From positions 97,378 to 161,377 of the forward strand of contig JAIOPV010000188.1 of assembly GCA_021413735.1 (NCBI GenBank): a stretch of DNA of 64,000 nt. The letters run 5' to 3'. A program made the position numbers and the translations under genes. This stretch comes from Planctomycetota bacterium (GTDB taxonomy: Bacteria > Planctomycetota > Planctomycetia > Gemmatales > Gemmataceae). Positions 1 to 20,027 of the stretch are shown here, piece by piece (position 1 is the stretch's first letter; the number at the start of each line of letters is the position of its first letter). Below the pieces are notes generated by a model. It ran no database searches. It worked only from the letters and a program-made list of their open reading frames with translations, and was not told the DNA's origin.

Positions 1-137
1 CCCGGACGACGATGCCGTCCCCGGCGTCGAAGTCGAAGTCCTCGGTACGGCGGGTCAGGACCAGGAGACCCTTGCGGCACTCAGGGCACTTCTCGTCGGT
101 CTGTTCGCCAGGATGGTTCATTGGAGGATCTCCATCA

Positions 138-482
138 CTACCGTGGGTAATTGGTTCTGTGGCAGCTCTGGATGTAGGCGCGGTACTTCCCAAGGCGATA
201 CTCGTAGACCTTAAGTTTGATGAAAATGCCCCGCCGGTCGGTCGCCTGCCAAGCGATGTCGTTGGGGTCGGGCGGAGTGCATTGGGCAACAGGCACCAAG
301 CACACGCCTCCCGGTCCCAAGGCGTCGATGATGTACTGAACGACTTCTCCATCCGACGGATCACGCCCAAAGTGATCCTTCAGATCAACTTTGGCTTGCC
401 GACTCGCGCGCTGGCTGAACTCGTACTCGTCGTCGTCGAGTAGACTCCGCAATTGTTGCTGTTCTGGAGGCGGACTTGGCAT
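138..482 (-). CDS. hypothetical protein
   Basis: 114 aa ORF, acidic N-terminus; no family recognised. Confidence 0.5.
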   Translation of the reverse strand: MPSPPPEQQQLRSLLDDDEYEFSQRASRQAKVDLKDHFGRDPSDGEVVQYIIDALGPGGVCLVPVAQCTPPDPNDIAWQATDRRGIFIKLKVYEYRLGKYRAYIQSCHRTNYPR

Positions 483-569
483 GCGGCCGAACCCCGCGGT
501 GGTGACAGTTCGTGAAGCCTTATCACATGGTCAGATCTTTTTCAGGTGGCCGAGTGTGCCAGATTGTTA

Positions 570-634
570 ATCATATGATCTGTTTCGGTGCGGTCAAGCC
601 CAGCGGCTCACCTGATTTCAGATCATATGATCTG
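570..634. promoter_or_regulatory. paired operator-like palindromes (ATCATATGATCTG and CAGATCATATGATCTG)
   Basis: perfect 16-bp palindrome at 619-634 and a second copy of its core at 570-582, in a non-coding AT-rich patch. Confidence 0.5.
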
Positions 635-999
635 TCGGGGCCGCGGCCAGAACTCCACATTTTCTCTAATCTTCTACTGGTAAAAGGCTTGCGTCGAATA
701 ATCAGGTCGTCAACTGGCTCCTGAAATATGTTCGCGACGCCCCTGACCGCTCCGACAAGGCCCCTTGGCACTTTCCATCCCGCCCCGCCGAGCCGATCCG
801 GGGAGACTGCCCGAGCCGTCGAACTTCGCAAGCTGCCAAGGCGGTTTCCATCCCAGCGGATATCGGGGACGCGGCATGAGGCCCCCGGCGCTCGAATCGA
901 ACGCCAACTTGCCCGGAACGCATCGAAGAGACGGGATTAATCGCTGCCGATGGACGCCCTCCCGCCTGCCGCTAAAATGCTGGTTTTGGAGGGCGTGCC

Positions 1000-1740
1000 G
1001 TGTTCAAGGGAACGGTGAGCTACCGGGCAGAGATCGACGGCATGGGGCTGAAGTTCCCGCTGTTCGATTACAAACCCACGGAACCGGCCATCGAGAAGGT
1101 GGAGATCGAAGGGCCGAATGGCGATCACATCCTGGTGACTGTCCATTTTTCGTCCATCGCGGCCCCCGACGATGCCCGCCCCATCGCGGCGAAGGCCGCA
1201 ACTGCCGCCCTTGATCGCCTAAGCTATCACCACGGGATCACCATCGGCAACCCGCACTTCACCGGCCACAACTTCAACCCTGTTAACCCCACGCCGGGCA
1301 CGTTCAGTTACGCTGGAAGCGGGATTGGACTGTTCGTGTCCGGGTCGGCGCCAGCCGCCATCGGGCTCCAGCCGGGCCAACTCAAGCCGGATCTCGAAGA
1401 CCCCACTCCCACCGGTGGACGGCACTTCCCACTATTTCGTTCCGCCCTGCTCTCGGGAAGCCCGGTCGAGACGTTCATGCACCTCTACAACTTGCTGCTG
1501 ATGCTGTACGGGGACAATCAGGGCAACGTTGACGGGTTCATCCGCACGGTCGAACCTGCCGTTCCACAGACCCCCAGCCCGAAGTTCGCAGGGGTGAATG
1601 AGACCCTCTACACCCGGCTCCGCAACGAGTTCGCGCATGTCCGCGTCGGTGTTGACATGAACCAGACGAAGGCGGAGATGGAACAGCACGTCGGTCACCT
1701 CCGGGACATCGTTCGCAAGGCGATCAAAGCGAAGCCGTAG
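1000..1740 (+). CDS. HEPN-motif (RNEFAH, Rx4H) protein, MauJ/ApeA-HEPN-like
   Basis: 246 aa ORF; C-terminal 'LYTRLRNEFAHVRVG' matches the HEPN Rx4H signature. Confidence 0.55.
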   Translation: MFKGTVSYRAEIDGMGLKFPLFDYKPTEPAIEKVEIEGPNGDHILVTVHFSSIAAPDDARPIAAKAATAALDRLSYHHGITIGNPHFTGHNFNPVNPTPGTFSYAGSGIGLFVSGSAPAAIGLQPGQLKPDLEDPTPTGGRHFPLFRSALLSGSPVETFMHLYNLLLMLYGDNQGNVDGFIRTVEPAVPQTPSPKFAGVNETLYTRLRNEFAHVRVGVDMNQTKAEMEQHVGHLRDIVRKAIKAKP

Positions 1741-1798
1741 CTCCGATGGTCGTTTCTGGTGCCGGATGCGGTGCTGCATAAAGTGCTTGACCGCGTGT

Positions 1799-2299
1799 TT
1801 AGTCGAGCTTGGCCTCGTTCTTCCTATGCCACTCGATGTGGTGCTTCCGGCACAGCCAACGGACTTCAAGCGGTTTCGTGTAGTCATCGTGATGCGCTTC
1901 GACTTGCCTCCAGCCGTCGGGAGCCCGAATTGGTATGCCGCACACTTCGCACGGTGAAGGGAGCAGATCGCCTCGGGCGATGGCATTTTTGACCTCTGCC
2001 CATGCTGCGGCTTTCAGTTGGTACGCAGCGGTGCGTTTTGCCACTTCGCCATCCGGTCGCTCTTCGATTCCGTGAGGCATCCCAGCATATCCGGGGTCGG
2101 AAAGCGACGCAGACTCTTGGCGATCAGGATCACGTTCGGCAATCTGATGGACTCCAGCCTTCACGAGGCAAGCATGTGCAGCCTGCTTTGTGACCCGGAA
2201 AAAATCCGCAATCTGAGCAAAATCGAATCCAGCCGCATAAAGCAGCGTTGCCTGCCGCAAGTCAATCTTCCTCTTGTATCCCTTTCTTACATATCCCAT
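1799..2299 (-). CDS. HNH endonuclease with N-terminal HTH-like segment
   Basis: 'CEVCGIPIRAPDGWRQVEAHHDDYTKPLEVRWLCRKHHIEWH' typical phage HNH signature. Confidence 0.8.
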   Translation of the reverse strand: MGYVRKGYKRKIDLRQATLLYAAGFDFAQIADFFRVTKQAAHACLVKAGVHQIAERDPDRQESASLSDPGYAGMPHGIEERPDGEVAKRTAAYQLKAAAWAEVKNAIARGDLLPSPCEVCGIPIRAPDGWRQVEAHHDDYTKPLEVRWLCRKHHIEWHRKNEAKLD

Positions 2300-2328
2300 C
2301 CAACTGCCTCCTTGTTGACGACATAAAT

Positions 2329-2362
2329 CTGTTTGACATGAACAATTGATTCTGTCAAACAG
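2329..2362. promoter_or_regulatory. inverted repeat CTGTTTGACA-N14-TGTCAAACAG in divergent intergenic region
   Basis: 10-bp perfect arms containing outward TTGACA hexamers, between genes at 2299(-) and 2405(+). Confidence 0.5.
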
Positions 2363-2404
2363 TTATTCAGTACGGGCAATGAAGCTCGGTGTAAATGTTC
2401 AGGA

Positions 2405-2722
2405 GTGAGTATGCAAATTGACAAATCGAAGCTGGCCAGTCTCGCGGCTGATTGCCATGTAAAACAGACCTCTATGCAGAGCCTTCATATGCAATTGCAA
2501 AAAGGCGGCACTCCCGAGATGGCGGGTCTATACCCTATCGCCAAGGTCGAATATCAACGGGCCAAAAATCTGCTCGACCTGGAAGTAAAGACCCAGTCCG
2601 TGACCATCATCAAACAGACCTCCCAAGCACATGCTAGCGATTGCGCGGTACATAACGCGCCCGCCCTGCCAGTTGGCCCTTGCGATTGCGACCTGTCGGT
2701 AAGGGAATCAGACCCCGCATGA
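2405..2722 (+). CDS. hypothetical protein
   Basis: 105 aa ORF, GTG or internal ATG (2411) start. Confidence 0.5.
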   Translation: MSMQIDKSKLASLAADCHVKQTSMQSLHMQLQKGGTPEMAGLYPIAKVEYQRAKNLLDLEVKTQSVTIIKQTSQAHASDCAVHNAPALPVGPCDCDLSVRESDPA

Positions 2723-2938
2723 CCCGAACACGTCCGTGACCGTCCTGCCCATCCATCAACTCCCCCGCCGAGCCATTTATCGGGTGATGCTGAAGCCGCA
2801 GCCGTGCCCCGCAAGCTGCCAACCGGGTTTCCCTTCGGGAGCCTCCCGGTTTCGCGTTGCCGGTCACAGCCCCAGCGGCTTCGTGCGCAACCCGTAACGG
2901 CCCCGATTGGCGGGGTCAGCAACTGAAAGGAATCGACT

Positions 2939-3517
2939 ATGACCAAGAAAGTAAAACTGACCAACGCGCGCCGTGATGTGATTCGTGAATACGGCGTCAA
3001 ACACATTAGTGCCAACATCGACCGCACCAAGGAGAAGAAGCACCTCGGGGTCATGACCGAGGCTGCGAACGCTGCGATCCGGGCCAAGTACCCCGAGGCC
3101 GACATGGTGGTCCTTCGGAGGTACAAGCTCGAACAGACGGATCGTTGCCTCAAGTTCCAGCTCCCAAGCGGACGGGTGGACGGATTCAACTTCCCCAGCG
3201 ATGCGGCAATAGCTGACATTCCGTATTGCCGGAGCTGCCACTACGGAAACAGCGACGTGTTTGTGGTGTCGTCCGCCTTCGAGAAGTCCTTTGATGAGTA
3301 CGCGAAGCTGAAAACCGAATCCGATAAACGCCAGCATGAGAAGATGCAGGAGTTTATGAGCTTCCTCGGTGCCTGCCAGTGCGTCGAGGAGGTGCTGGAA
3401 GTGATTGAGCTCCCGGAGGACATCCGCAAACGTGTCGGGCACGAATCCACCGGCCTTGTGGCCGTTACTCCGGAAACGGTCAAGTCGCTCAAGGCAACGT
3501 TCAAGAAAAGTGCGTAA
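2939..3517 (+). CDS. hypothetical protein (possibly Nmad5-like phage protein)
   Basis: 192 aa ORF with AAAGGA SD upstream; weak resemblance only. Confidence 0.6.
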   Translation: MTKKVKLTNARRDVIREYGVKHISANIDRTKEKKHLGVMTEAANAAIRAKYPEADMVVLRRYKLEQTDRCLKFQLPSGRVDGFNFPSDAAIADIPYCRSCHYGNSDVFVVSSAFEKSFDEYAKLKTESDKRQHEKMQEFMSFLGACQCVEEVLEVIELPEDIRKRVGHESTGLVAVTPETVKSLKATFKKSA

Positions 3518-3583
3518 TCTACCGGGCGAGGCATGAAGCCCCGCCCGTCCTATCCAACGTCAAATCAGAAAAGGAATTCCACC

Positions 3584-5512
3584 ATGACCTACCAACAGAT
3601 CGAAATCAATCACCTTGAACGTTCCCCCCTGAACGTCCGCAAAACCGACAGCCATGCAGCGATGGAGGAACTGAAAGCGTCCATCGTCGCTCACGGCCTC
3701 ATGCAGAACCTCGTCGTGGTTCCCGCCAAGAAGGGGAAGTTCAGCGTGGTCGCTGGCGGAAGACGCCTCGAAGCGCTCATCCAACTGCGGGACGAGGGCA
3801 AACTGCCTGACGATCACTCCGTCCCATGCCGAATCGCCGACCCGGCAGAAGCGGCGGAACTGAGCCTCGCCGAGAACACTGTCCGCCAGGCCATGCACCC
3901 CGCCGACGAGTTCGAGGCCTTCGCCGCTCTTATCGAGCAGAAACTAACCGCCGCTCAGGTGGCGGAGCGGTTCGGCACAACCGAACGGCACGTCCTTCAA
4001 CGCATGAAGCTGGGCCGGGTCGCACCGAAGCTCCTTACGGCTTACCGGGCAGGCGACGTGACGCTCGACGCCCTCATGGCGTTTGCGGTCACCGACGACC
4101 ACAAGCGGCAGCTCAGCGTCTGGAAATCGCTGGAAGGCTGGCAGGTCAACAACGTGCGCCAGATCCGAGGTAAGCTCACAGACACGCTGACCGATGCCGA
4201 CGACGACGTGGTCAAGTTCGTCGGTCTGGAAGCCTATAGGGCAGCGGGCGGGCGGGTTCGGGAAGATCTGTTCAGCGAAGACGTGTATCTCGAAGACTCC
4301 GCGCTACTGGAACGTCTCGCCAACGAGAAACTGGACGCCGAAGTCGAGAAGCTCCGGGCCGAAGGCTGGGGCTGGGTCGAGATCGAAAGTGACGACAGCA
4401 TTCCGGCATACCGTTGCGGGCGGATCGAAGCAAAACCAGTAGACGCGCCGGAAGAACTCCTCTCTCTACAAAGCCAACTTGAAGTCGAGATTCGGGACCT
4501 CGACGAAGTTATCGAGGCGACGTGGGAGAGCGAGGATTCGGAGGAAGAGGAACGACTCGACACGAAGCGCTCCGAGGTACAGGAGCGACTCGACGCACTG
4601 GAAGAACAACTCGAAACGTACGCCGCCTTCGATCCGGCAGAGATGGCGAACGCTGGATGCCTCGTCTCCATCGGCCACGACGGCGAACTCGACCTCGCAC
4701 GCGGCTTGGTGAAACCGGGCGACCACCGGCCAGCAGCGGCAGGCGCCAACGATGGGTCTACCGCGGCGAAAGAGAAGCCGGAGTTCTCACAATCGCTCAT
4801 CGCCGACCTGAAGGCGTACCGGACGCAAGCCGCCCAAGCCGAGATCGCCTCACACCCCGATATCGCTTTCGACCTGCTGGTGTTCCACGTCGCTTGCGAC
4901 GTCCTCAGCCCCAGTAGTTTCCTCCGTGAGGGGATCGACGTCAGCTTCCGGCAGAGCTACCCCCGCCCGAGTGTTGAAAAGGACGGAATTGCTACCAAAC
5001 GGCTTGAAGCCATCCGGGAAGGCTTGTCGCTCGCGTGGCTGGAAATCGATGGCGAGGACGAGCGGTTTGACGCATTCCGTCAACTTCCCGACGACGACAA
5101 ACGCCGCATCCTCGCCTACTCCACTGCGTTGACCTTGAAGCCATCGCTGGCCGGCAGTGGCGAGTTTCCCTCGGCCTACGAAATCGCCCTGTCCCTGACG
5201 GGCGGCAGCGTGGCCGAATACTGGCGACCCACGAAGGACAACTACCTATCGCGAATCACCCGCGAGCAACTACTGGCGGCCGGGAGCGAGGTCATGCTCA
5301 GCGGCAAGGAGTGGGCCATCGCTCACCGCGACGACAAGAAGGGGGCGCTGGTCGAGGTGCTGGACACAACCTTCGCGGCGTCTGGCAAACCGGACACGAG
5401 GGACGCGATCAAGAACTGGTTGCCGAAGGGCATGGAGTTCCGGGCCGTGGCACAGGAAGCCGAGCCGATCGAAGCCCCGAAGAAGGTCCGCAAAGCCAAG
5501 CAAGTAGCGTAG
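3584..5512 (+). CDS. ParB/RepB/Spo0J-type nuclease-domain protein
   Basis: 'SPLNVRK...EELKASIVAHGLMQNLVVVP...VVAGGRRLEAL..LSLAENTVRQAMHPADEFEAF' then HTH; ATG 3584 with AAAAGGAA SD. Confidence 0.9.
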   Translation: MTYQQIEINHLERSPLNVRKTDSHAAMEELKASIVAHGLMQNLVVVPAKKGKFSVVAGGRRLEALIQLRDEGKLPDDHSVPCRIADPAEAAELSLAENTVRQAMHPADEFEAFAALIEQKLTAAQVAERFGTTERHVLQRMKLGRVAPKLLTAYRAGDVTLDALMAFAVTDDHKRQLSVWKSLEGWQVNNVRQIRGKLTDTLTDADDDVVKFVGLEAYRAAGGRVREDLFSEDVYLEDSALLERLANEKLDAEVEKLRAEGWGWVEIESDDSIPAYRCGRIEAKPVDAPEELLSLQSQLEVEIRDLDEVIEATWESEDSEEEERLDTKRSEVQERLDALEEQLETYAAFDPAEMANAGCLVSIGHDGELDLARGLVKPGDHRPAAAGANDGSTAAKEKPEFSQSLIADLKAYRTQAAQAEIASHPDIAFDLLVFHVACDVLSPSSFLREGIDVSFRQSYPRPSVEKDGIATKRLEAIREGLSLAWLEIDGEDERFDAFRQLPDDDKRRILAYSTALTLKPSLAGSGEFPSAYEIALSLTGGSVAEYWRPTKDNYLSRITREQLLAAGSEVMLSGKEWAIAHRDDKKGALVEVLDTTFAASGKPDTRDAIKNWLPKGMEFRAVAQEAEPIEAPKKVRKAKQVA

Positions 5513-5561
5513 CTCAACCGGGGCGGTGGCGACGCCGCGCCAACCTGAAAGGAATCGCAAC

Positions 5562-5843
5562 ATGAAGAACAAAATGAACGACCTAAACGACCACCTTTTT
5601 GCCCAGCTTGAGCGTTTGAGCGATGAGAATCTCGACGAGAAAGGACTGGAACGCGAAGTCCAGCGCACCAGCTCCATCGTCAACGTCAGCGAACAGATCA
5701 TCAACAACGCGCAGGTGGCCCTGAACGCGGCGGAATTGGTGGCGAAGCATGGACGCGGCAATTGGGAGAACATGTTGCCGAACGTCGATGGTAAGCCGAA
5801 GCCGCCCGTCATCCCGGATTTCAGCGACAAGGGCGGCAAATGA
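5562..5843 (+). CDS. hypothetical protein
   Basis: ATG 5562 with TGAAAGGAATC SD; overlaps the next gene by ATGA. Confidence 0.6.
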   Translation: MKNKMNDLNDHLFAQLERLSDENLDEKGLEREVQRTSSIVNVSEQIINNAQVALNAAELVAKHGRGNWENMLPNVDGKPKPPVIPDFSDKGGK

Positions 5844-6502
5844 CGAGGGGCCGCCGCATTCATTATTCCGAACCGGAGCTGGACTGGATCAAGCGATCCC
5901 GCGCGCTGCCGCGCAAAGACGGGCACCGGAAGTTCTGCGAAAAGTTCGAGCGGGGCGACGTGACGCTCACGCACTTCAACTCCTTGTGCAAGCGGAAGGG
6001 CTGGCTGACCGGGCGCACCGGGCGGATCGAGAAAGGCGCGGAACCGTGGAATACGGGCATGAAGATGCCGCCCGGCAAGGGTGGCAATCACCCGAACGCC
6101 CGGAAGACTCAGTTCCAACCCGGAACGCGCCAGGGAGTTGCCACGAAGCTGTATAAGCCGATCGGCACCGAGCGGGTCAGCAGAGACGGGTATCTGGAGC
6201 GAAAGATCCACGACGGCATGCCCCTGCAGTCACGCTGGCGGGCCGTGCATCTCATACGGTGGGAAGCGGTGAACGGCCCGGTGCCCAAAGGCATGTGCCT
6301 GAAGTGCCTTGACGGGAACCACCGGAACACTGAGCCAGACAATTGGGTCGCTATACCGCGGGGCGCACTGCCGTTTCTCAATGGGCATCGGGGCCACAAT
6401 TATAACGAGGTGCCTGACGAGTTGAAGCCCGCCGTCCTGGCGTTGGCACGGTTAAAGCACGCAAAGTCGAAAGCCGCCAAAAGAAAGAAGGATCTGCCCT
6501 GA
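5840..6502 (+). CDS. HNH endonuclease
   Basis: 'HLIRWEAVNGPVPKGMCLKCLDGNHRNTEPDNWVAIPRG' HNH_3-type signature. Confidence 0.75.
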   Translation: MTRGRRIHYSEPELDWIKRSRALPRKDGHRKFCEKFERGDVTLTHFNSLCKRKGWLTGRTGRIEKGAEPWNTGMKMPPGKGGNHPNARKTQFQPGTRQGVATKLYKPIGTERVSRDGYLERKIHDGMPLQSRWRAVHLIRWEAVNGPVPKGMCLKCLDGNHRNTEPDNWVAIPRGALPFLNGHRGHNYNEVPDELKPAVLALARLKHAKSKAAKRKKDLP

Positions 6503-6582
6503 GAGCCTGTGAATCAAACCCCGTTTTCAGGTCGAAAAGCCCTTGTTTTCGGCGATCTGGAGGGGTTTGATTCACAGGCTCT
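6502..6582. repeat. 21-bp perfect inverted repeat with internal stem (81-bp cruciform-like element)
   Basis: agagcctgtgaatcaaacccc (6502-6522) / ggggtttgattcacaggctct (6562-6582). Confidence 0.85.
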
Positions 6583-6705
6583 GAGCCCTGCCCAGCAAGT
6601 TCTCCTGCACGAACAGCCCGACAAGCCCCTCGTCCCTTGCACTAACGTGGGACTACCGCCTATGCCGTACTTAGAGATGAAGCACTTCATTGGGCGAACA
6701 GGTCG

Positions 6706-7440
6706 CTATTCGATCTTGCCACATCCGCCGGCGTCGATCACATAAACATCGAATGTCTCACTGATAGGGTTGACCCCCGTGCCGCCCAGTAACGGGTAGC
6801 GTTCGTGGCAGATCTTCATGAGCCTCTTGCTGAATGCAAGGGCTTGATCCTTCGTTACCGTCCCGATCGCTTGCGCTTGCCGCTGGAGCACATATTTCTT
6901 TACGTCTGCATCCGCGCGTAGATCATCGAACTGCGGACGGTTGCCTTTCATGAGTTCATCGATAACCTCGGTGCTACCGAACGGATTGACGCCGCTGTGG
7001 TCGCACTTCAGGTTGGTGCCGAGCACCTGCAGTGTTCCATCGCGCTTTGTGGAACACTGGCGATGCTGATACCTGAACCCTTCATCGACCCGACTGTAAA
7101 ACATGGCCTGAAATGATACCAGCACGATCTCGCCGGGGCGGTAAGTCTTGCAGTAAGTGGAGAACTCTTCCTTCAGTTTGCCCTCGAACGCTCCGAGCTT
7201 TTCGGCGGAGAACACTTGGTCTGCAAAGAATACCCTCATGACCTCGTACACATCGAACCTTACCACATCGCTTCCGCGGCCGAGCAATCGCACGCCACCC
7301 GTGGCAGTGCCAAGCGCCGCATTGCTCAACTTCACAATTTTGGTAACCGTGTCCTCATAGGTGTTCTTCTTCTTCCGCACCCTCTTGTCTGCGGCGAGAA
7401 CCAGCGCCTCTGTCGTGGCAATCGCGTTGACGAGTGTCAT
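6706..7440 (-). CDS. proteasome beta/HslV-like Ntn hydrolase
   Basis: Starting at ATG 7440 (GAGGGA SD), removal of Met exposes Thr1; Asp17 and Lys33 at exact proteasome/HslV spacing. Confidence 0.7.
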   Translation of the reverse strand: MTLVNAIATTEALVLAADKRVRKKKNTYEDTVTKIVKLSNAALGTATGGVRLLGRGSDVVRFDVYEVMRVFFADQVFSAEKLGAFEGKLKEEFSTYCKTYRPGEIVLVSFQAMFYSRVDEGFRYQHRQCSTKRDGTLQVLGTNLKCDHSGVNPFGSTEVIDELMKGNRPQFDDLRADADVKKYVLQRQAQAIGTVTKDQALAFSKRLMKICHERYPLLGGTGVNPISETFDVYVIDAGGCGKIE

Positions 7441-7547
7441 CGAATGTCCCTCACGAATCCGCACAATCGCAGTCCCGCTGTAATCGACTCGTGCTGCCTT
7501 CGGCATCTGAGCCTCGACTTCGATTCTAGCGACGGTCGGCCACAGAT

Positions 7548-7982
7548 CTACTCCCGCTCGCGCGGCGTCACGTCCGTGACCTCGATCTTCGTCACGAACG
7601 GCTTTCCCTCTTCGCCGCCGAAGTCCCGATCCGCTTGCCGGATGCGGCGCAGGCAGTGATCGTTCAGTCGATCGTACAGCGGGCGCAGATTCCGGCCCTC
7701 GACAGTGACCTTCCAGCTTTGCAGGCCGACGAATAACACCCAGAACTTGCCAGGCGAGAACTCGGACAGCACCCCCAAATAAACGTACTGAAGCGATACG
7801 ACCGGCTCCTTTCCGCCGCGTTCGATGTCCAGCGCCTTGCAGCCCTTCGCCCACACCCAGCCGCACGGACCGACGTCCTGCCGGAGTTCCTTTTCCTCTT
7901 CGTCTTCGGGAACTGCCGGGTCGGTCTTTCCCGGTCTGCCGTTCAGAATGTCCTTCAAACTCCCGCCTTTATCGGCCGACAT
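7548..7982 (-). CDS. hypothetical protein
   Basis: 144 aa ORF overlapping the end of the relaxase gene. Confidence 0.55.
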   Translation of the reverse strand: MSADKGGSLKDILNGRPGKTDPAVPEDEEEKELRQDVGPCGWVWAKGCKALDIERGGKEPVVSLQYVYLGVLSEFSPGKFWVLFVGLQSWKVTVEGRNLRPLYDRLNDHCLRRIRQADRDFGGEEGKPFVTKIEVTDVTPRERE

Positions 7983-10815
7983 ACGCGATCTCCCTCTCTG
8001 GTTGCCGTTCCGTGATAGCAGCCGCGGCGCGGTCGCGCAATCGTTCGTAAGTGTCCTTCACCCGCTTCACCAGCGAGTGCGTGCGCTCGCGGATCGTTCG
8101 CTTCCGTTTCGGCTTCGGCGTCATGAGTTCGGTCGCCGACTTCCGCGCGTCGTGACGCTGGATCGCGGCGCGGAGCTGCTCGGCGGCGAGGTCGCTGTAC
8201 ACCGTTGCCTTCTCCCGACCGCGGGACACTGACACGTAGAACTGCTCGGAGTTGATCGCCGGGACGGAGTTGCTCCCCATCGCGATGAGCACGCGGTCAA
8301 CCGTCTTTCCCTGCGAAGCGTGGGACGTGGCGACGTAGCCGTGAGTGAGATGGCCGAATGCCTTCGAGACGACCCAGCCGTTGTTCAGTGCAATGTCGCC
8401 TTCTTTCGTGAACCCCGCGACCGTGTACTGGCTGCCGTTGTCGAGGCGGTGGGTTCCGGTGATGTCCTTGCCGTTGGCGGTGATGCGGATGGCGTCGCCT
8501 TCCGCGAGCCGGACGGTTTGCTCAGAGAGGACAGAGAAATATTCAGGCTTGCCAAGCCGATCTTTAGGATTCCAACTTGCGATTCTAACGCGGTCACCCG
8601 CCTTAAAAGTTCCGCTGTTTCGGTGGTACTGCAACACCTCGGTGCCGTCGTACCGCGCGACATCGCCCTTCTCAGCATCCGTCCAACCCAGAGCCCGAAG
8701 CTGTACGAAATCCCTCTCCTCACCCTTCAGTCTCCCGTCTTCCTTTAACCGTTCGCGGATCTCTTCGGTGATGCGTTCACCCTCGACATGCGTGGGCGCC
8801 ACGACCAGCACTGACTTGCCGGAATGCACCGCAGCGAGGTAGTCGTCCACCAAGGGCTTGTCGCCATCGACCTCCTTCACCCAGCCGAGTCCGACGAGCT
8901 TATCATACCCGTCGAGAATGTCACCCTCGGCGAGCGCGGCCACGGCCTGCTTGTACTGGCCGTGCTGGCGGCGGATGTCCTTCAGGCGGCCCACGGGAAG
9001 CCCGGCGAACTCCTGCAGCACGTTGAGCATGTCACCGTCGCGAGCCACGGAGCGATGTTGCTTGGGGTCACCCTGAAGCACGAGGCGGGCGTTCTGGTCC
9101 TTGGCCACATCCACGAGCCGGGAAAGATCGCGGATCGGGAGTTGCCCAGCTTCATCGACCCAGATCACGCCATTCGCAACCCCAGCCTGCCGGTCCTCGC
9201 TCGCGAGGAACGAGGCCACCGTATCGGCGCGGCTGAAGCCCTCCCGGCGGAGGACACCGCGTGAGGCCTCGGCACCGGGAGCGAGGATTTCTACGGCGCG
9301 GTCGATGGACGCGAACGCCGACTTCACCGCGTGCGTTTTCCCCGTTCCAGCGTCACCGATGACCAGGACGACGCGGTCGGGGGAGCCGAGGACGTGATTG
9401 ACCATGGCGGATTGTTCGGCAGAGAGATTGTCTACTTTAAGGCGGGTGATTGGTGATGCTAACGAACCGGATTGTACAGGCTTAGCTTTCGCTTGCCGTT
9501 CGGGGGAGAGTGTGGCAGTATCAGGCCGCTGGAGATGCAGCGGACTTGCATCATGGGGAGCAATCCCCTGCCCGGCGGCAGGCCGCTTCGATTCGTCGGG
9601 GCGGCCTTTTTGTTGACCTAGTGCGGAGAGTGTGGCAACCTCGCTCCCGCGCCGCTCAATTTGCTTCCCGAGAGGCCGCATCGTCCCCCTGCCATCACGA
9701 GCAAAGGCGATGATGCGGCTCTCCTCTCCCAGCACGTCCTTCGTCGTGGCTTCGCCGTTCTTCAGCAGCACGCCCTGACGCTTCGCTTCCTCGATCACCC
9801 CTTCCGGCGTCACCGACCCGATCCCGTGGCGGATGGCCGTCTCGTAGAGCTTGCGGTCCTCGACCACGCTGCGCCGCTCGAACAGGTGACCCATTGCGAA
9901 CTGGACGGCATCCCGCTCGTTCGACGCGTAAGACGGCAAGCCCTCCAGCCCGGCAAGCTGCTGGCGTTCCGGCTGAGTCAGCCGGCTGACGTAGTACCCG
10001 TTCAGGTCGTCTGCGAGTTCCTTCGCCTTGCCGAGCCGCGTCGTCGCGCCGAGCTTCGCCATCGCACCCGGTGAGGTGATGCCGAGCTTCTCGGCCACCA
10101 TCTTGATGTAGTTCCGGCGGCGGGAGAACTTGTCGATCATCTCGCGAGAGATGCCTGCAACCTCGAACGCCTTCCCCTCACGCCGGATGCCGTAGCCCAG
10201 GTCGCGGAGGTTCGCTGCCAAGCGGTTGTGGTAAATTGCCTCGAACCACGGCGAGTCGTGCTTGATCTCGCCGATCTCCGCTGCCTTCCACTTGTCTTCA
10301 ACAGGGTCAAAAGTTGCATTAAAAACAAAGACATGATCGTGCAACGACATGTCCGGGCGCTGGTCTTCGGCGCTGATGCGGGTGTCGCGGTGGGTGACTC
10401 GGTACGCAACCATGTTCCCCGTCGTGCGATTGCCGTTGGCACCGCCAACTCGGACGCGGGCCTGCATGTCCTTCTCGACGTAGCCCATCGTGTACGCGAC
10501 GGCTTCGCGGTGAGCTGCTTCGATGCGAGGGTCACCTGCGTTGCCCGCGCCCGCGAGTTCGCGCGCGATGCCGACCGACTTCGTGGAGTTGAACGTCATG
10601 TCGAGACCGACGCGACGGTTCTCGCGTGAGCCGCCGACGGTCAGGTCTTTCCCGGTGCGGGGATCGAGATTGTCGGCGAGGGAATCGAACTGCTCTGGGG
10701 ACGTTGCTCCGGTCAGGCCAAGGAGTTCAGCACCTTTGCCGAGCCACTGGCCCGGAGACGTCGAGTAGTAATCGGTGCTGCGATAGTAGCTCTTCGCGGC
10801 GGCGGCGCTGGTCAT
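7969..10815 (-). CDS. MobF-family conjugative relaxase/helicase (TrwC/TraI-like)
   Basis: N-term 'KSYYRSTDYYST..GQWLGKGAELLGLTG' tyrosines, 'HDHVFVFNATFD' His motif, 'GDAGTGKTHAV' Walker A, C-term RecD-like 'GYVATSHASQGKTVDRV'. Confidence 0.92.
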   Translation of the reverse strand: MTSAAAAKSYYRSTDYYSTSPGQWLGKGAELLGLTGATSPEQFDSLADNLDPRTGKDLTVGGSRENRRVGLDMTFNSTKSVGIARELAGAGNAGDPRIEAAHREAVAYTMGYVEKDMQARVRVGGANGNRTTGNMVAYRVTHRDTRISAEDQRPDMSLHDHVFVFNATFDPVEDKWKAAEIGEIKHDSPWFEAIYHNRLAANLRDLGYGIRREGKAFEVAGISREMIDKFSRRRNYIKMVAEKLGITSPGAMAKLGATTRLGKAKELADDLNGYYVSRLTQPERQQLAGLEGLPSYASNERDAVQFAMGHLFERRSVVEDRKLYETAIRHGIGSVTPEGVIEEAKRQGVLLKNGEATTKDVLGEESRIIAFARDGRGTMRPLGKQIERRGSEVATLSALGQQKGRPDESKRPAAGQGIAPHDASPLHLQRPDTATLSPERQAKAKPVQSGSLASPITRLKVDNLSAEQSAMVNHVLGSPDRVVLVIGDAGTGKTHAVKSAFASIDRAVEILAPGAEASRGVLRREGFSRADTVASFLASEDRQAGVANGVIWVDEAGQLPIRDLSRLVDVAKDQNARLVLQGDPKQHRSVARDGDMLNVLQEFAGLPVGRLKDIRRQHGQYKQAVAALAEGDILDGYDKLVGLGWVKEVDGDKPLVDDYLAAVHSGKSVLVVAPTHVEGERITEEIRERLKEDGRLKGEERDFVQLRALGWTDAEKGDVARYDGTEVLQYHRNSGTFKAGDRVRIASWNPKDRLGKPEYFSVLSEQTVRLAEGDAIRITANGKDITGTHRLDNGSQYTVAGFTKEGDIALNNGWVVSKAFGHLTHGYVATSHASQGKTVDRVLIAMGSNSVPAINSEQFYVSVSRGREKATVYSDLAAEQLRAAIQRHDARKSATELMTPKPKRKRTIRERTHSLVKRVKDTYERLRDRAAAAITERQPEREIAYVGR

Positions 10816-10984
10816 CCAGTTTGTGCGTATCAACGGCAACCCCGAGTTGGTTGCGGAATCCTATACGCGTCTGCCAAACCGCGCAACTGTCCAGTGCAGT
10901 GCAAGTCGTGAAATCGATGTGCTGGAACGGCTGTAGTGTTCTTCGCTTCATCCGATCACGTCCAAGTCCTTGTCATGGGAAGCT

Positions 10985-11090
10985 GCACCGGCAGCCGTGC
11001 CGGGCAAGCAGAGAATCGGTTCCCCCTGAAGGTTGCCCCCAATTCTCTGCTTGCCCGTCGCAAGAGCTCACGGCGCCGGCCGGTGCGGGC
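10985..11090. other. candidate oriT (16-bp perfect inverted repeat plus imperfect outer arms)
   Basis: cgggcaagcagagaat (11001-11016) / attctctgcttgcccg (11042-11057) directly upstream of the relaxase. Confidence 0.4.
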
Positions 11091-11142
11091 GCTGACCCAC
11101 AAGGACACGATGGTCGTGTCCCGAAATAAAAGGAGAAAGAAC

Positions 11143-11409
11143 ATGTCTTCACCAGCAATTAAATTCCGCGACGGATGCCTGCAAGTGGTCGTTTGGCGCA
11201 ACACCAGTACCAGCGGTCAGACCTACTACACCGCGACGCCCCAGCGATCCTACAAGCAGGGTGACGACACCTGGAAGGAAACCGACTCGCTCAACACCGA
11301 CGATCTATTGGCCATGGCGGAACTACTCCGCGAGGCTTACGACTGGATCAGGATGCAGAAGCGAGCCGACGCGAAGGGCCGCAAGGAGTCCGAGCAGAAG
11401 GTGAGTTGA
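11143..11409 (+). CDS. hypothetical protein
   Basis: 88 aa, strong AAAAGGAGAAAGAAC-ATG. Confidence 0.65.
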   Translation: MSSPAIKFRDGCLQVVVWRNTSTSGQTYYTATPQRSYKQGDDTWKETDSLNTDDLLAMAELLREAYDWIRMQKRADAKGRKESEQKVS

Positions 11410-11502
11410 AACCGTTTGCGGGACCACCCGCAGCGTGATACGAAAATGGGTGACAGCGGAGACTGTCACCCACCTCTTTAACCTCAAGGATGAGTTGAGA
11501 TT

Positions 11503-11820
11503 ATGACCGATATAAAACACGGAACGAAACAGAAAGCAAGCCACACGCCCGGTACTTGGGAAGCCAACGGCAGCACGGTTATCGCGAGCAAGGAAAGCTT
11601 TCGCGCCCTGTTTGACTGCAAACCTTTAAGGATGACGTTAAGTGCTGATGAATGCGCAGCCAACGCCCGCCTGATCGCCGCCGCTCCGGATCTGCTGGGG
11701 GCGTTGCAAGCCATATTGCAAGACGCTGACGCAATCTCTTATGCCACACCACATTTGAGCGGTGACTATTGGGAAGAGGCCCGTGCCGCCATCGCCAAAG
11801 CCATAGGACTCGCCGCATGA
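11503..11820 (+). CDS. hypothetical phage/plasmid protein ('ANARLIAAAPDLL' family)
   Basis: C-terminal 'CAANARLIAAAPDLLGALQAIL' common in phage proteins; ATGA overlap with next gene. Confidence 0.7.
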   Translation: MTDIKHGTKQKASHTPGTWEANGSTVIASKESFRALFDCKPLRMTLSADECAANARLIAAAPDLLGALQAILQDADAISYATPHLSGDYWEEARAAIAKAIGLAA

Positions 11821-14800
11821 CCCGCCGCCCCGCCAAGCGGCCCGCAGGGCGTTCCCTTTTCGACGACGAACCAGACGAGCAACCCACCTTCGCCGAACGT
11901 GTCGGCGGTTCTAATCCTCCAGCCACGTCATTCGTCGAGCGTGTGAAGTCCAGCCCCGAACCCGTCCCGGAAGTCGTCCGCGGTCCCCCGATCTCCAGCG
12001 GCGAGAAGGGCAAGGCCCGCGACATCATCGCCGCGATCCGCACGCTTCACCAGGTCGAGCAGCGCGGCACACCCGCGACCCCGACGGAGCGGGAAGCTCT
12101 CGGCAAGTTCTGCGGATTCGGCCCTGTCGCCCTCTCGATCTTTCCGAACCCCGTCTCGGGCGTCTACAAGGACGAGTCGTGGCGGCCGATCGGCGAAGCG
12201 CTCAAGGATCTACTCCCCCCGGACGAGTACGACAGCGCGAAGCGGACCACGTTCAACGCGTTCTACACCTCCCCAACCGTCATCACGGCGATGCACTCCG
12301 CCCTCGACCGTCTCGGCGTGCCCGAGAACGCGGTCGTTCTGGAGCCGGGCGCCGGGATCGGGAATTTCATCCGGCCCGGCAAGCGGTTCATCGGCGTCGA
12401 GCAGGACAGCATCTCGGGACGAATCGCAAAGGCATTGCACCCGGATCAGGACATCCGCATCGAGGACTTCCAGCGGACCAAGCTGCCCCAACTGGACGCG
12501 GTGATCGGAAACGTCCCATTCGCGAACCTGAACCTCGACCACCACGGCCAGAAGTTCGCGCTGCACGACTACTTCATCGCCAAGTCAGTTGACTCACTGA
12601 AGCCCGGCGGCGTGCTGGCACTGGTCACGTCTCATTACACACTCGACAAGCAGAACGCCGCGAGCCGGGAGTATCTCGGCGACCGGGCCGACTTCCTCGG
12701 CGCCATTCGGTTGCCGTCGGATGCGTTCAAACGCGAGGGGACGGCGGTTGTCACGGACATCGTCTTCCTGCGGAAGCGCGGCCCCGGTGAGCCAGCCCGT
12801 CATGCCGATCCCGAATGGCTGAAGGCCGAGCTGACCGAGGTCGACGGCCGATCGCTGCCGATCAACCACTACTTCAAGGCGCACCCCGAGATGGTGCTGG
12901 GGACGTACAGCGGGAAGGATTCCCTTTACGGCGAGGGGTACTCGGTCCTGTCGAACGGCGATCTTGCCGAGCAGTTGAAGCAGGCGGTGGAGCGATTTCA
13001 GCGCGCGCCACAAACGCCAGCGTTTCCAGACGCTTCGGACGACGAAAAGCCCAAAACCGGCGATTCCGCGCGCACGGCCTTCGTTCCCCCTCCCCCCGAT
13101 CCCCACGTCACCGAGGGCAGCTTCTTCGTCCACGAGCGCCGCATCCACCAACTCATGGACGGGCAATCCTCGCCCGTCGTCTACGGTGGCGGTGAACTCT
13201 GGGCCAATGGCGGGCTGGTCGGCCGACGGCTTGGCCATCTGATCGAGCTGCGGGATAAGGCCCGGTATGTCCTGCGTTCCCAAAACGAGGGTTGGCCTGA
13301 ATCCGCACGCAACGAAGCCCGCCGGAAGCTGAACCTGGCCTACGACACTTTCAAATCCGCCTACGGGCCGATCAACAAGACGACGTTCTCCGAGACGAGC
13401 GACGGCACGACGATCCGCCGGATGCCCAACCTTGTGAAGTTCCGGGAAGACCCGGACGCGATGCTGGTCATGGCGCTGGAGGAGTACGACGAGGAGACCG
13501 GCGAGGCGAAGAAGGCCCCGATCATGCTCAAGGACGTGGTCGGGAAAACGCCGCCGATCACGACCGTCACCAGCGCCGAGGAGGGGTTGCTCGTCTCCCT
13601 CGACCACCGCGGCACGGTGGACCTGCCGTACATCGCGAAGCTCTACGGCAAGCCGGAGGAGAAGGTCATCGCCGAGCTGGGCGACCTGATCTACCGCGAC
13701 CCCGAATCGAATCACTGGGAGACCGCCGACGCGTACCTGTCGGGTAACGTCCGGGCGAAGCTCATTGCTGCCGAGAAAGGCGGGATCACCCGCAACATCG
13801 ACGCCCTCCGTGCCGTGCAACCCGAGGACGTGCTGCCGGGCGACATTGACGCCAACCTCGGCGCCCCGTGGATTCCCGCTTCCGACATTCAGGCCTTCGC
13901 GGCTCATCTGTTCCAGGTTCCCGCGTCGTCAATGACCGTCGGCCATCTGGCGAAAGACGCGGTGTGGTCCGTGCAGGGTGACTACTCGGCCGAGCGGTCC
14001 GTCGCGGTCACCACCGACTACGGCACCCAGCGGGCCAGCGGCATCTGGCTGCTCGACCTCGCTCTCAACATGAAGTCCCCCGTCATCTACGATCCGGACC
14101 CCGACGACTCCGACAAGCGGGTCGTGAACCAGGAGGCCACGCTAGCCGCGAAGGAAAAGCAGAAGCAGATCAAGGAGCAGTTCCGCGGCTGGATCTTCGC
14201 CGACCCGGACCGCACCGAGCGGTTGGTGCGGACGTACAACGACACCTACAACAACCTGCGCCCGCGCCAGTTCGACGGCTCGCATCTCGATTTCCCGGGG
14301 ATGTCGCAGGCGTATACGCTACGCCAGCACCAAAAGGACGCTGTGTGGCGAATCATGTCGGGCGGGAATACCCTGCTTGCTCATACGGTTGGCGCTGGAA
14401 AAACGGGCGCTATGGCAACCGGAGCAATGAAGCTGAAGCAGGCGGGGCTAGCGAAGAAGAGCCTGATCGCGGTCCCCAACCATCTCCTCGAACAGTTCGC
14501 CCGAGAGTTCCAGCAGTTCTACCCCAACGCGAAGTTGCTCGTGGCCGGGAAGGACGACTTCACGAAGGATCGCCGGAAATACCTAACCGCGAAGATCGCC
14601 AGTGGGGATTGGGACGCGATCATCGTCACCCATTCGAGCTTCGAGCGCATAGGGATGTCACGCGACTATCAGGAGAAATTCCTCCGCGAGCAGATCGCTG
14701 AATACGACCAGTTGCTCATCGACCGCGCCGCCGAGAAGGGGAATAACCGGAACATCATCAAGACGATCGAGAAGCAGAAGGCCGCGCGCGAGGGGAAGCT

Positions 14801-17021
14801 GAAAGACCTGCTCGCCAGCGACAAGAAGGATGACGGGTTGGTGTTCGATGAGCTGGGCGTGGATCACATTTTCATCGACGAAGCACACTATTTCAAAAAC
14901 CTAGAGACGCCTACGAAGATGGACCGCGTCGCGGGGATTCAGTCCGGCGGTTCCGAACGAGCGTTCGATCTGTTCATGAAGGCCCGCTACCTCCACGAGC
15001 AGCATCCCGGCCACGGCCTGACCTTCGCCACCGGCACGCCAATCAGCAACACGCTGGTCGAACTCTACACGATGCAACGCTTCCTCGACCCCGACGGGTT
15101 GCGGTCCCGCGGGATCGAGCACTTCGACGCATGGGCGGCGACATTCGGCGAAGTCGTCGAGACTATGGAGATCAGCCCCGATGGGAAGTCTCTGAAGCCG
15201 CGCAGCCGGTTCGCCAAGTTCGTGAACCTGCCAGAACTCCAGCAGATGTTCCGCCAGCCAGCCGATGTCCAGACCGCGGAAATGCTGAACCTGCCCACAC
15301 CCAAGCTGGAAGGTGGTAAGCCCCACATCGTTGCCTGCCCGATGTCGGACGAGCAGCAGCGGTTGCAGGACGAGCTGGTCGCGCGGTACGAGCGCATCCG
15401 CACCCAGAAGGTCGATCCGCGAGAGGACAACGCACTGGCGATCACGACCGATGGCCGGAAGCTCGCCCTCGATGCCCGCATGCTCTCGGCGTCGGCTCCC
15501 GATTTCCCCGACTCGAAGATCAACGCCCTCGTGGAGAACGTTTTCGCCATCTGGGAGCGAACGGCACCGGCCCGCAGCACGCAGATGATCTTCTCCGACA
15601 TGGGCGTCAATCCCACGTCGTGGGGCTTCTCGGCTTACGAAGAGGTGACGCGCAAGCTCGTCGCCCGTGGTATCCCACGCGAGCAGATAGCAGTAATGGG
15701 CGATGCCGACTCCGACGCCAAGAAGCAGGCGCTGTTCGAGAAGGTCCGCAATGGCGTGGTCCGGGTGCTGATCGGTTCCACGTCGAAGATGGGGACCGGG
15801 ACCAATGTGCAGAAGCGGCTGATCGCGATGCACCACCTCGACGCACCGTGGAAGCCGGCCGAGGTCGAGCAACGGGACGGCCGCATCCTCCGGCAGGGCA
15901 ACACGAACGCAGAGGTTTCGATCTATCGCTACGTCACGGAAGGGAGCTTCGACGCCTACATGTGGCAGGCGCTGGAGACGAAAGCGAGGTTCATCTCGCA
16001 GATCATGACCGGCGAATCCGGCGTCCGGCGCGCGGAAGACGTTGGCGGCCAGGAGCTGAGCTATGCCGAGGTGAAGGCCATCGCGTCAGGGAATCCCGCG
16101 GTGCTCACGCTCGCAGAAGCCGACGCCGAGCTGCAGCGGCTCGGGGTGCTCCGAAGGAACCACGCCGACGAGCAGTACCTCGCCCGGAAGAACCTGCGCG
16201 AGTTGCCACAGAACATCGACCGGATGGAGAAGCGGCTCGCGGCACTCGAAGCAGACTGGAAGACCGTATCCGGCGGAGATGCCGGGATCGTTACCGTCGG
16301 CGGCCGAAATCTTGCACCCAACGAGCCCGCATTTGGAGCGGCGCTGACACGTATCCCGGATTTCGTGGACCATCGCCGCCAGTTCCCGGTCGGGAAGTAT
16401 CGCGGCCTGACGTTCGGGATCGAGCGCCACCCCGGCAGCGCGGCGGACGTGTACCTTGAGGGTGAGTCTTACCGCACGACCATGCTCTCGAAGGAATCGC
16501 AAGGCCCGCGGGCGGTGATGAACGCGCTGGGGCGGCTCGCCACGTCCTACGAGGAGCGGATCGATGTGACCCGGCAGGATCTTACGCTGGCCCGTAACCA
16601 GCTCGCCGACTACGAGGCCCGGCTGGGGCGCCCGTTCAAGCACACGGCGTATACCGACGAGCTGACCGCACTGCGCGACCGGCTGAAGACGGCGCTGTCC
16701 GGCACCCCCGCCGAGGGCGAACCGACATCCGGGGAACTGGCCGAGCAGATCAAGGCGTTGAAAGCTGCACACGCAATCGAGGCGGCACCGGCACGGGTCA
16801 GGGCCGTGAAGAAGGCCGAACCGATTCGCCGGAAACCGGTCGAGGAGCCGAAGGTTGAGGAACCCCCGGCGCCAGCGGAAGAACCGAAGCCCGAGGAGAA
16901 ACCACCCGAAGAGGCGAAGCCTGAAGAGAAGCCGGATGACACACCGTCGGATGATGATGGCAAGCCGCCCGTTCGGTTCACACACCGGGTCAGGAAGGGC
17001 ATTCAATTGCGGCTGTTCTGA
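11817..17021 (+). CDS. DarB-like N6-adenine DNA methylase / SNF2-type helicase
   Basis: methylase 'VLEPGAGIGNFI'/'GNVPFANL'; helicase 'LAHTVGAGKTGAM', 'DHIFIDEAHYFKNL', 'GTNVQKRLIAMHHLDAPWKPAEVEQRDGRILRQGN'; Pro/Glu-rich C-term. Confidence 0.9.
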   Translation: MTRRPAKRPAGRSLFDDEPDEQPTFAERVGGSNPPATSFVERVKSSPEPVPEVVRGPPISSGEKGKARDIIAAIRTLHQVEQRGTPATPTEREALGKFCGFGPVALSIFPNPVSGVYKDESWRPIGEALKDLLPPDEYDSAKRTTFNAFYTSPTVITAMHSALDRLGVPENAVVLEPGAGIGNFIRPGKRFIGVEQDSISGRIAKALHPDQDIRIEDFQRTKLPQLDAVIGNVPFANLNLDHHGQKFALHDYFIAKSVDSLKPGGVLALVTSHYTLDKQNAASREYLGDRADFLGAIRLPSDAFKREGTAVVTDIVFLRKRGPGEPARHADPEWLKAELTEVDGRSLPINHYFKAHPEMVLGTYSGKDSLYGEGYSVLSNGDLAEQLKQAVERFQRAPQTPAFPDASDDEKPKTGDSARTAFVPPPPDPHVTEGSFFVHERRIHQLMDGQSSPVVYGGGELWANGGLVGRRLGHLIELRDKARYVLRSQNEGWPESARNEARRKLNLAYDTFKSAYGPINKTTFSETSDGTTIRRMPNLVKFREDPDAMLVMALEEYDEETGEAKKAPIMLKDVVGKTPPITTVTSAEEGLLVSLDHRGTVDLPYIAKLYGKPEEKVIAELGDLIYRDPESNHWETADAYLSGNVRAKLIAAEKGGITRNIDALRAVQPEDVLPGDIDANLGAPWIPASDIQAFAAHLFQVPASSMTVGHLAKDAVWSVQGDYSAERSVAVTTDYGTQRASGIWLLDLALNMKSPVIYDPDPDDSDKRVVNQEATLAAKEKQKQIKEQFRGWIFADPDRTERLVRTYNDTYNNLRPRQFDGSHLDFPGMSQAYTLRQHQKDAVWRIMSGGNTLLAHTVGAGKTGAMATGAMKLKQAGLAKKSLIAVPNHLLEQFAREFQQFYPNAKLLVAGKDDFTKDRRKYLTAKIASGDWDAIIVTHSSFERIGMSRDYQEKFLREQIAEYDQLLIDRAAEKGNNRNIIKTIEKQKAAREGKLKDLLASDKKDDGLVFDELGVDHIFIDEAHYFKNLETPTKMDRVAGIQSGGSERAFDLFMKARYLHEQHPGHGLTFATGTPISNTLVELYTMQRFLDPDGLRSRGIEHFDAWAATFGEVVETMEISPDGKSLKPRSRFAKFVNLPELQQMFRQPADVQTAEMLNLPTPKLEGGKPHIVACPMSDEQQRLQDELVARYERIRTQKVDPREDNALAITTDGRKLALDARMLSASAPDFPDSKINALVENVFAIWERTAPARSTQMIFSDMGVNPTSWGFSAYEEVTRKLVARGIPREQIAVMGDADSDAKKQALFEKVRNGVVRVLIGSTSKMGTGTNVQKRLIAMHHLDAPWKPAEVEQRDGRILRQGNTNAEVSIYRYVTEGSFDAYMWQALETKARFISQIMTGESGVRRAEDVGGQELSYAEVKAIASGNPAVLTLAEADAELQRLGVLRRNHADEQYLARKNLRELPQNIDRMEKRLAALEADWKTVSGGDAGIVTVGGRNLAPNEPAFGAALTRIPDFVDHRRQFPVGKYRGLTFGIERHPGSAADVYLEGESYRTTMLSKESQGPRAVMNALGRLATSYEERIDVTRQDLTLARNQLADYEARLGRPFKHTAYTDELTALRDRLKTALSGTPAEGEPTSGELAEQIKALKAAHAIEAAPARVRAVKKAEPIRRKPVEEPKVEEPPAPAEEPKPEEKPPEEAKPEEKPDDTPSDDDGKPPVRFTHRVRKGIQLRLF

Positions 17022-17073
17022 TGTGTCTCTCCCTCATCCCCCTCACCCCTGCCGAGGCCACCCCACTGACTTG

Positions 17074-17652
17074 TCACGGCAACACGTGTCCCAACTTCGC
17101 CTGAAGGTACAACTCGGCCGAGAAGAGCAGTTTTTCCGGCGCGTTGGTCATCCGGAAGGTGCAGAGCGTGACTTGGTCATCGAACAAGTGATCAGGCCAT
17201 GTGCCCTCCCGACGGCTGTAGTATTCACGGATCGTAGCGGCTGAGAGTGTGTTGCGGTCGCGAAGATGCTCGACTCCGACTCGCTGCCGGAGGTTTACAG
17301 CCTTCCCCACTTTCAGCACCAGTTTCTCGGTCAGGCTGGTGAACACGTAAACGCCCGCCGCTTCGTCCATCTCTTCCTCGTGCTTCGGGCGCTTGCCCCG
17401 AATGATCTTCTCCCCGGCGATGGTCCGCAAATCGTCGCAGGTGAAAAAACGGTACTGGTCCACGTCGAACAAAGACCGGAAGCAGTTCCCACGCAGGTCA
17501 ACCCCCGAGCTGAAGACCTCGAATGTGTGACGCTCCTCTTCGTCCCGATTTTGCTTCTCCATAGCCAACAGATCCACGGTGCGCTCCGGTAGTCTTAAAA
17601 GCACCATTCTCCTCCACCGGGCGGAACATGACCAGCGGTAACTCGAAGGCAA
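17074..17652 (-). CDS. GIY-YIG-like nuclease domain protein
   Basis: 'GVYVFTSLTEKLVLKVGKAVNLRQRVGVEHL...AELYLQAKLGHVLP'; true start uncertain. Confidence 0.5.
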   Translation of the reverse strand: MPSSYRWSCSARWRRMVLLRLPERTVDLLAMEKQNRDEEERHTFEVFSSGVDLRGNCFRSLFDVDQYRFFTCDDLRTIAGEKIIRGKRPKHEEEMDEAAGVYVFTSLTEKLVLKVGKAVNLRQRVGVEHLRDRNTLSAATIREYYSRREGTWPDHLFDDQVTLCTFRMTNAPEKLLFSAELYLQAKLGHVLP

Positions 17653-17665
17653 ATCGCCCTACTAG

Positions 17666-19526: not shown

Positions 19527-19531
19527 CTAGC

Positions 19532-20027
19532 TCACGTCCCGTCCAGCGGCCCGCACCGCGCAGCGATCTCCGCCGCGAGCACCTTCAGGAACTCGTCTAA
19601 CCCTTTCATGTCGCCCCGCACTAGCCCGAGTTTCGACCCGTCCCGGAACCGCAGCTCGTAGCCCCGGTTCGATGTCCCCATGAAGGCGTCCGCAAGCGCA
19701 TTTTCCATCGGCCCCATGTAGGTCGAGTTCAGCGGCTTCACCGCGACGATGTCCGCGGCTCGGTGCTCGACGATCCGCCGAGTCAGGAGTCTGCGGGCGC
19801 GCAGCACGCCGTCGTCCAACTCGACCCACTGCACGCTCGACGACATCGCCCAGAGCATTACGGCGAAGAACAGGATCGCTCCCGGCGCGAGGTACATGCT
19901 CACGTTCGGGGGGGGCGAAGATGATGACCACCACGGCGACGGCCAGCGGGCCGAGGAGGAACAGGGCGGAGCAGCCCATCGCCATGACGACGAAGACGGG
20001 GCGGAGGTGGATGGAGTGGGTGTCCAT
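19532..20027 (-). pseudogene. membrane protein with bacterial PH-like domain, split by a frameshift at a G8/C8 tract
   Basis: N-terminal TM frame (to 20027) and PH-like frame (19532-19903) join at the 8-nt homopolymer 19908-19915. Confidence 0.55.

Follow-up and report, generated by a model that had tools for sequence, protein, structure and literature searches.

Fuchs, Alva and Lupas (2021) described 22 new prokaryotic proteasome-like families, several of them in phages (i.e., PPH, AAH, and others), and these families combine the residues T1/D17/K33 and G47 with the lack of a propeptide and of a linked AAA+ partner (PMC8665760). Most of the PMI group (i.e., PMI-2 to PMI-6) carries an insertion between helices H3 and H4 (PMC8665760). 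In BPH and Anbu, removal of Met exposes Thr1, yet both are inert on standard substrates (PMC5777263, PMC5666114); BPH is labelled by epoxomicin (PMC5777263).

We analysed a stretch of 64,000 nucleotides (hereafter the window; C137:97378-161377) from a 9.8-Mb genome of 293 contigs, whose size and gene content suggest a planctomycete-type host. The window encodes a protein of 244 residues, P0001, which we take to be a highly divergent, propeptide-less proteasome-like Ntn hydrolase that is carried as cargo of an element and has no function in the relaxase operon (probability, about 0.72). Because stand-alone proteasome homologues have already been published (PMC8665760), P0001 would add a new and highly divergent case to a described group. 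Like those homologues (PMI and the phage-borne PPH and AAH), it has no propeptide, has Thr1, Asp17, and Lys33, and has no unfoldase gene seen nearby; as judged from the published description, narrow distribution and phage carriage are further shared features. Unlike them, it was found in a single genome, which has two copies, and PPH is shorter (~140 residues versus 244). The helices predicted between H3 and H4 of P0001 recall the insertion of PMI-2 to PMI-6.

P0001 resembles Anbu in its Met-Thr start without a propeptide. Its identity to planctomycete Anbu-like sequences is ~14 to 21%, the C-terminal helical extension of Anbu is absent from P0001 in the alignment, and none of the Anbu operon genes (transglutaminase, ATP-grasp, and Alpha-E) occurs among its annotated neighbours. 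HslV, an Ntn Thr protease, belongs to this superfamily as well; P0001 exceeds the planctomycete HslV set in length by ~70 residues, and no HslU was seen near it. BPH, going by its description, is comparable as a proteasome-like complex with no known unfoldase in which removal of Met exposes Thr1 (PMC5777263). The initial annotation had presented P0001 as a possibly novel, self-contained protease with no visible unfoldase partner. We likewise saw no AAA+ unfoldase among the annotated proteins (part of the element's ORFs was scanned), but this is not novel: it is the norm for such homologues (PMC8665760), and it is expected because the published ones have no linked AAA+ partner.

The probable Ntn hydrolase gene and its paralogue

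The P0001 frame runs on the minus strand from ATG 7440 to a stop at 6706 (244 aa). Its features, in window coordinates, are as follows.

6706..7440, minus strand: proteasome-like Ntn hydrolase gene (P0001), 244 aa, as assigned from PF00227, the paralogue, and codon constraint
7447..7452, minus strand: GAGGGA, presumed ribosome-binding site at a spacing of 6 nt from ATG 7440 (from sequence)
7435..7437, minus strand: codon 2, Thr1 of mature P0001, presumed nucleophile (from sequence; Thr also in the paralogue)
7387..7389, minus strand: codon 18, Asp17 (from sequence; conserved in the paralogue)
7381..7383, minus strand: codon 20, Arg19 (from sequence; conserved in the paralogue)
7339..7341, minus strand: codon 34, Lys33 (from sequence and alignment; mature position 32 in the paralogue)
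7297..7299, minus strand: codon 48, Gly47, possible oxyanion-hole glycine (from sequence and alignment)

With Met removed, mature P0001 opens TLVNAIATTEALVLAADKRVRKKKNTYEDTVTK, and T1, D17, R19, and K33 fall at the proteasome positions; G47 lies inside LGTATGG. The proposed start at ATG 7440 with GAGGGA upstream and the proposed T1/D17/K33 spacing behind a Met-Thr start were both borne out by the sequence. A true start farther upstream, which had been named as an observation that would count against the proposal, is disfavoured relative to ATG 7440. GTG 7866 is unlikely because the frame from it overruns a separate upstream gene (7548-7982); ATG 7506, which adds a leader of 22 aa before Met-Thr, is possible but less likely.

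These residues suggest how the protein may work. Methionine aminopeptidase would remove Met1, as expected because residue 2 is small, and Thr1 would be exposed to act as the nucleophile, with Lys33 and Asp17 as a putative proton relay. The enzyme may then hydrolyse peptide bonds, or possibly form them as a ligase, in a limited range of unfolded or specific substrates, and would do so without a dedicated ATPase. Because BPH and Anbu are inert on standard substrates, an active enzyme could go unnoticed if it were assayed on peptides alone.

One other copy is present in the genome (C273:47768-48493), and it is 44% identical to P0001 over 240 residues (pairwise BLAST E, 6e-61). It begins at the equivalent Met-Thr, exactly where its similarity to P0001 starts, and no ATG, GTG, or TTG occurs in frame in the 66 nt upstream of it. 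The two copies differ by 43/35/62% at the three codon positions, which argues for protein-level constraint on both. The paralogue keeps T1, D17, and R19; its lysine stands at position 32 because one residue is deleted before it. The Gly47 column holds His in the paralogue, followed by Gly; the codon after Gly47 is also Gly in P0001, and the aligned glycine of the paralogue is this next one. Conservation of T1/D17/K33 among homologues, which had been proposed as a check, therefore holds for T1 and D17 but is displaced by one residue for the lysine. As the two known members come from one genome, active-site conservation rests on one comparison.

Superfamily assignment and predicted structure

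In searches against a profile library of 24,736 models, PF00227 matched P0001 with 19.0 bits (E, 0.0012; residues 6-49) and the paralogue with 19.2 bits over the same stretch (E, 0.0010; residues 4-46). Both scores lie below the curated cut-off of 22.4 bits; the published divergent proteasome homologues likewise came from sub-threshold matches (PMC8665760). With archaeal proteasome alpha/beta models, the paralogue reached E values of 0.0016 to 0.038, and P0001 one of 0.013. When a profile of the two members was compared with PDB, the best six matches were proteasome subunits (E, 0.022 to 0.13), with alpha subunits at the top, while P0001 alone found no proteasome subunit in PDB. Against the planctomycete Anbu-like sequences, hhalign placed residue 1 on residue 1 (P0001 residues 1-40 on Anbu residues 1-37; P, 8.9e-5) with a score of 37.4, against a shuffle maximum of 27.3, and 0 of 300 column shuffles reached it. 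A plain Anbu HMM, which is weaker evidence than hhalign, gave 8 bits per copy, and 2 of 2000 shuffles scored higher.

The corresponding hhalign comparison with HslV returned a probability of 0.3%, and 91 of 300 shuffles scored as high. On contig C24 the host carries its genuine HslV together with HslU, and the PF00227 scan of the genome matched this HslV and the two copies and nothing else. The HslV family phrog_1040 matched the paralogue with 17 bits; a search with phrog_1040 returned mostly HslV-like matches, as judged by lengths and matched positions. On the basis of sequence, the evidence favours a proteasome-like Ntn hydrolase that is closer to Anbu and the subunits of proteasomes, with HslV farther off. 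Thus, the first half of the earlier "proteasome/HslV-like" designation is supported, while the HslV half is not, its hhalign score being within the shuffle range.

The predominance of alpha subunits among the best PDB profile matches is what would be seen if P0001 had a proteasome-like fold without being an enzyme (i.e., a protein for assembly, scaffolding, or binding, comparable to the inactive alpha subunits), and the difference between the copies at the Gly47 column and the shift of the lysine by one residue are consistent with such a role. However, both copies have Thr right after Met together with Asp17 and Arg19, and neither shows the N-terminal extension of alpha subunits, so that we consider a non-catalytic role unlikely.

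Structure prediction by AlphaFold, which had been suggested as a check of the Ntn fold, gave two models of low confidence. The model built from the two copies had a pLDDT of 46.0. Rows of Anbu sequences added to the alignment did not rescue it: pLDDT still stood at 48.7, and this procedure is partly circular besides. In Foldseek, 47 of the 50 best PDB matches of the two-copy model were proteasome chains, at a TM score of ~0.24 or less and with no E value below 0.001, whereas the best 41 PDB matches of the Anbu-row model included no proteasome and were mostly other folds. A JAMM/MPN reading taken from the latter list was rejected; the confidence of the model was too low, and no JAMM motif was seen. 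A search of viral predicted structures returned nothing usable. By our reading of both models, the order of predicted secondary structure (strands, two helices, three strands, helices, and two strands) resembles the proteasome-subunit pattern, except that extra helices separate H3 from H4. Since both models are poor, the Ntn fold of P0001 is putative.

Poor models, similarity that is significant only over approximately residues 1-50, and a Foldseek list of the Anbu-row model that points elsewhere would also fit a protein unrelated to the proteasome fold, whose N-terminal resemblance arose by chance or convergence. We regard this as improbable, given that both copies match the same family over the same stretch at library E values of ~1e-3, that 0 of 300 shuffles reach the hhalign score with Anbu, and that the match begins at residue 1 and preserves the catalytic spacing.

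The integrated element and the relaxase

Host-type genes, as judged from their sequences, fill roughly the first 70 kb of C137. Beyond ~70 kb follow a phage integrase and a type IV coupling protein (PF02534; VirD4-type), and the window carries genes for a ParB-like protein, the relaxase, recombination proteins, terminase, portal, sheath, tape measure, and baseplate. On C273, a related element that likewise encodes an integrase and a terminase begins at ~14 kb; its relaxase is 31% identical to that of the window, and the shared genes have 67 to 86% identity. The P0001 gene thus lies on an integrated, prophage-like element in which phage and transfer genes are mixed. What the initial annotation called a "mobilisable element" would more accurately be termed an integrated element, one that carries integrase, coupling-protein, relaxase, and tailed-phage genes. 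The G+C content is 55% in the Ntn gene, 63% in the element, and 59% in the host part of the contig. No Rfam match was found in window positions 1-20000, and no tRNA was found in the window. The genes closest to P0001 are as follows.

7548..7982, minus strand: 144-aa protein; its start overlaps the relaxase end by 14 nt (phmmer; 11 loci)
7969..10839, minus strand: MobF (TrwC-type) relaxase-helicase (PF08751, 194.9 bits; NF041492 MobF, 166 bits)
5840..6502, plus strand: HNH endonuclease, convergent neighbour (PF13392, 29.1 bits)

Among the neighbouring ORFs, part of which were scanned, those with a family match encode the relaxase, the HNH endonuclease, the ParB-like protein, and a helicase-like protein.

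The P0001 gene had been placed next to the relaxase gene. The relaxase is in fact the next gene but one, with the 144-aa ORF between them. IMG/VR yielded two related relaxases, and genomes of the same class yielded many. Twelve such loci were scanned over roughly 10 kb on each side with a two-copy HMM and a motif scan whose matches were read; none showed an Ntn gene, while 11 of the 12 retain the 144-aa ORF downstream of the relaxase (phmmer E, 2e-18 to 1e-4). The two whole IMG/VR records with a related relaxase, which may be fragments, also showed no Ntn gene. Since the 12 loci do without the Ntn gene while 11 keep the ORF, the link to the relaxase appears incidental; neither the conserved neighbourhood with MobF genes nor the role in transfer control that had been envisaged is supported. 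The absence from these loci, together with the difference in G+C content (55% versus 63%), instead marks the Ntn gene as cargo. The 144-aa protein, which has no Pfam, NCBIfam, or PHROG match, is a candidate partner of the relaxase and not part of the Ntn system. That P0001 works with the relaxase (e.g., by processing it or by controlling transfer) is very improbable. In its favour, the Ntn gene lies on the same strand two genes downstream, with no terminator-like site in the 107-nt gap upstream of it, and the second copy is also in an element with a MobF relaxase; in that element, however, ~7 kb that includes opposite-strand genes separates the Ntn gene from the relaxase, and the survey of related loci speaks against a partnership. 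We therefore retain cargo status for P0001, whose gene would be an accessory passenger of an integrated element combining phage and transfer genes.

Several further features of the two elements were observed. Both (C137 and C273; loci L091, L093-L096, and L100) have a tyrosine integrase, a MobF relaxase, and tailed-phage genes. The C273 element has a gene resembling that for a type IV coupling protein, the one in C137 being assigned by Pfam. A very large helicase-like protein is encoded at window positions 11769-17021 (1750 aa) and at C273 27864-34247 (72 to 81% identical), with methyltransferase-like and SNF2-like matches. At window positions 44216-45847, the first 145 residues of the product match anti-CBASS Acb1 (PF23474; 138.5 bits) and the rest resembles, by eye, a prohead protease or scaffold, so that an anti-defence domain is apparently joined to a head protein. 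L091 14610-15638, close to the second Ntn copy, encodes a PAPS-reductase domain that matches BrxP, DndC, and SspD models, and a C-5 cytosine methylase gene adjoins it.

Distribution and significance

Searches for further members found nothing beyond the two copies, either when plasmid and phage records were queried by tblastn with each of the two or in 60 relatives, 299 to 399 genomes of the class, and 399 genomes of the phylum. Scans of IMG/VR and two scans of genome contigs gave no further homologue; the pattern-based scans detect a relative only if short stretches are conserved in it, and the search scope did not extend to nr or metagenomes. A weak N-terminal match (E, 0.0056) was obtained in another genome (L082). 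The stand-alone Ntn-like protein encoded there at 1456-2510 (MTLILSALHSDCVVLASDRRVT) is apparently split by a frame change, and a SEC-C-like cysteine motif lies downstream. Its N-terminal part, used as a query, gave no result. PADLOC returned no match for either copy, which is no evidence either way on the defence or anti-defence role that had been proposed.

A bolder reading is that the two copies form a new subfamily, i.e., a self-contained proteasome-like enzyme of mobile elements that acts on specific partners without an ATPase, as a protease or a connectase-like ligase, and that aids lysogeny or counters host defence. We consider it speculative and rather unlikely. The more conservative interpretation, that P0001 is a divergent, probably catalytic proteasome-like hydrolase carried as cargo, removes a tempting but unsupported link between the enzyme and DNA transfer and treats the Ntn gene as separable from its surroundings. 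P0001 would thus be a rare, very divergent, prophage-borne addition to the little-characterised stand-alone proteasome homologues.
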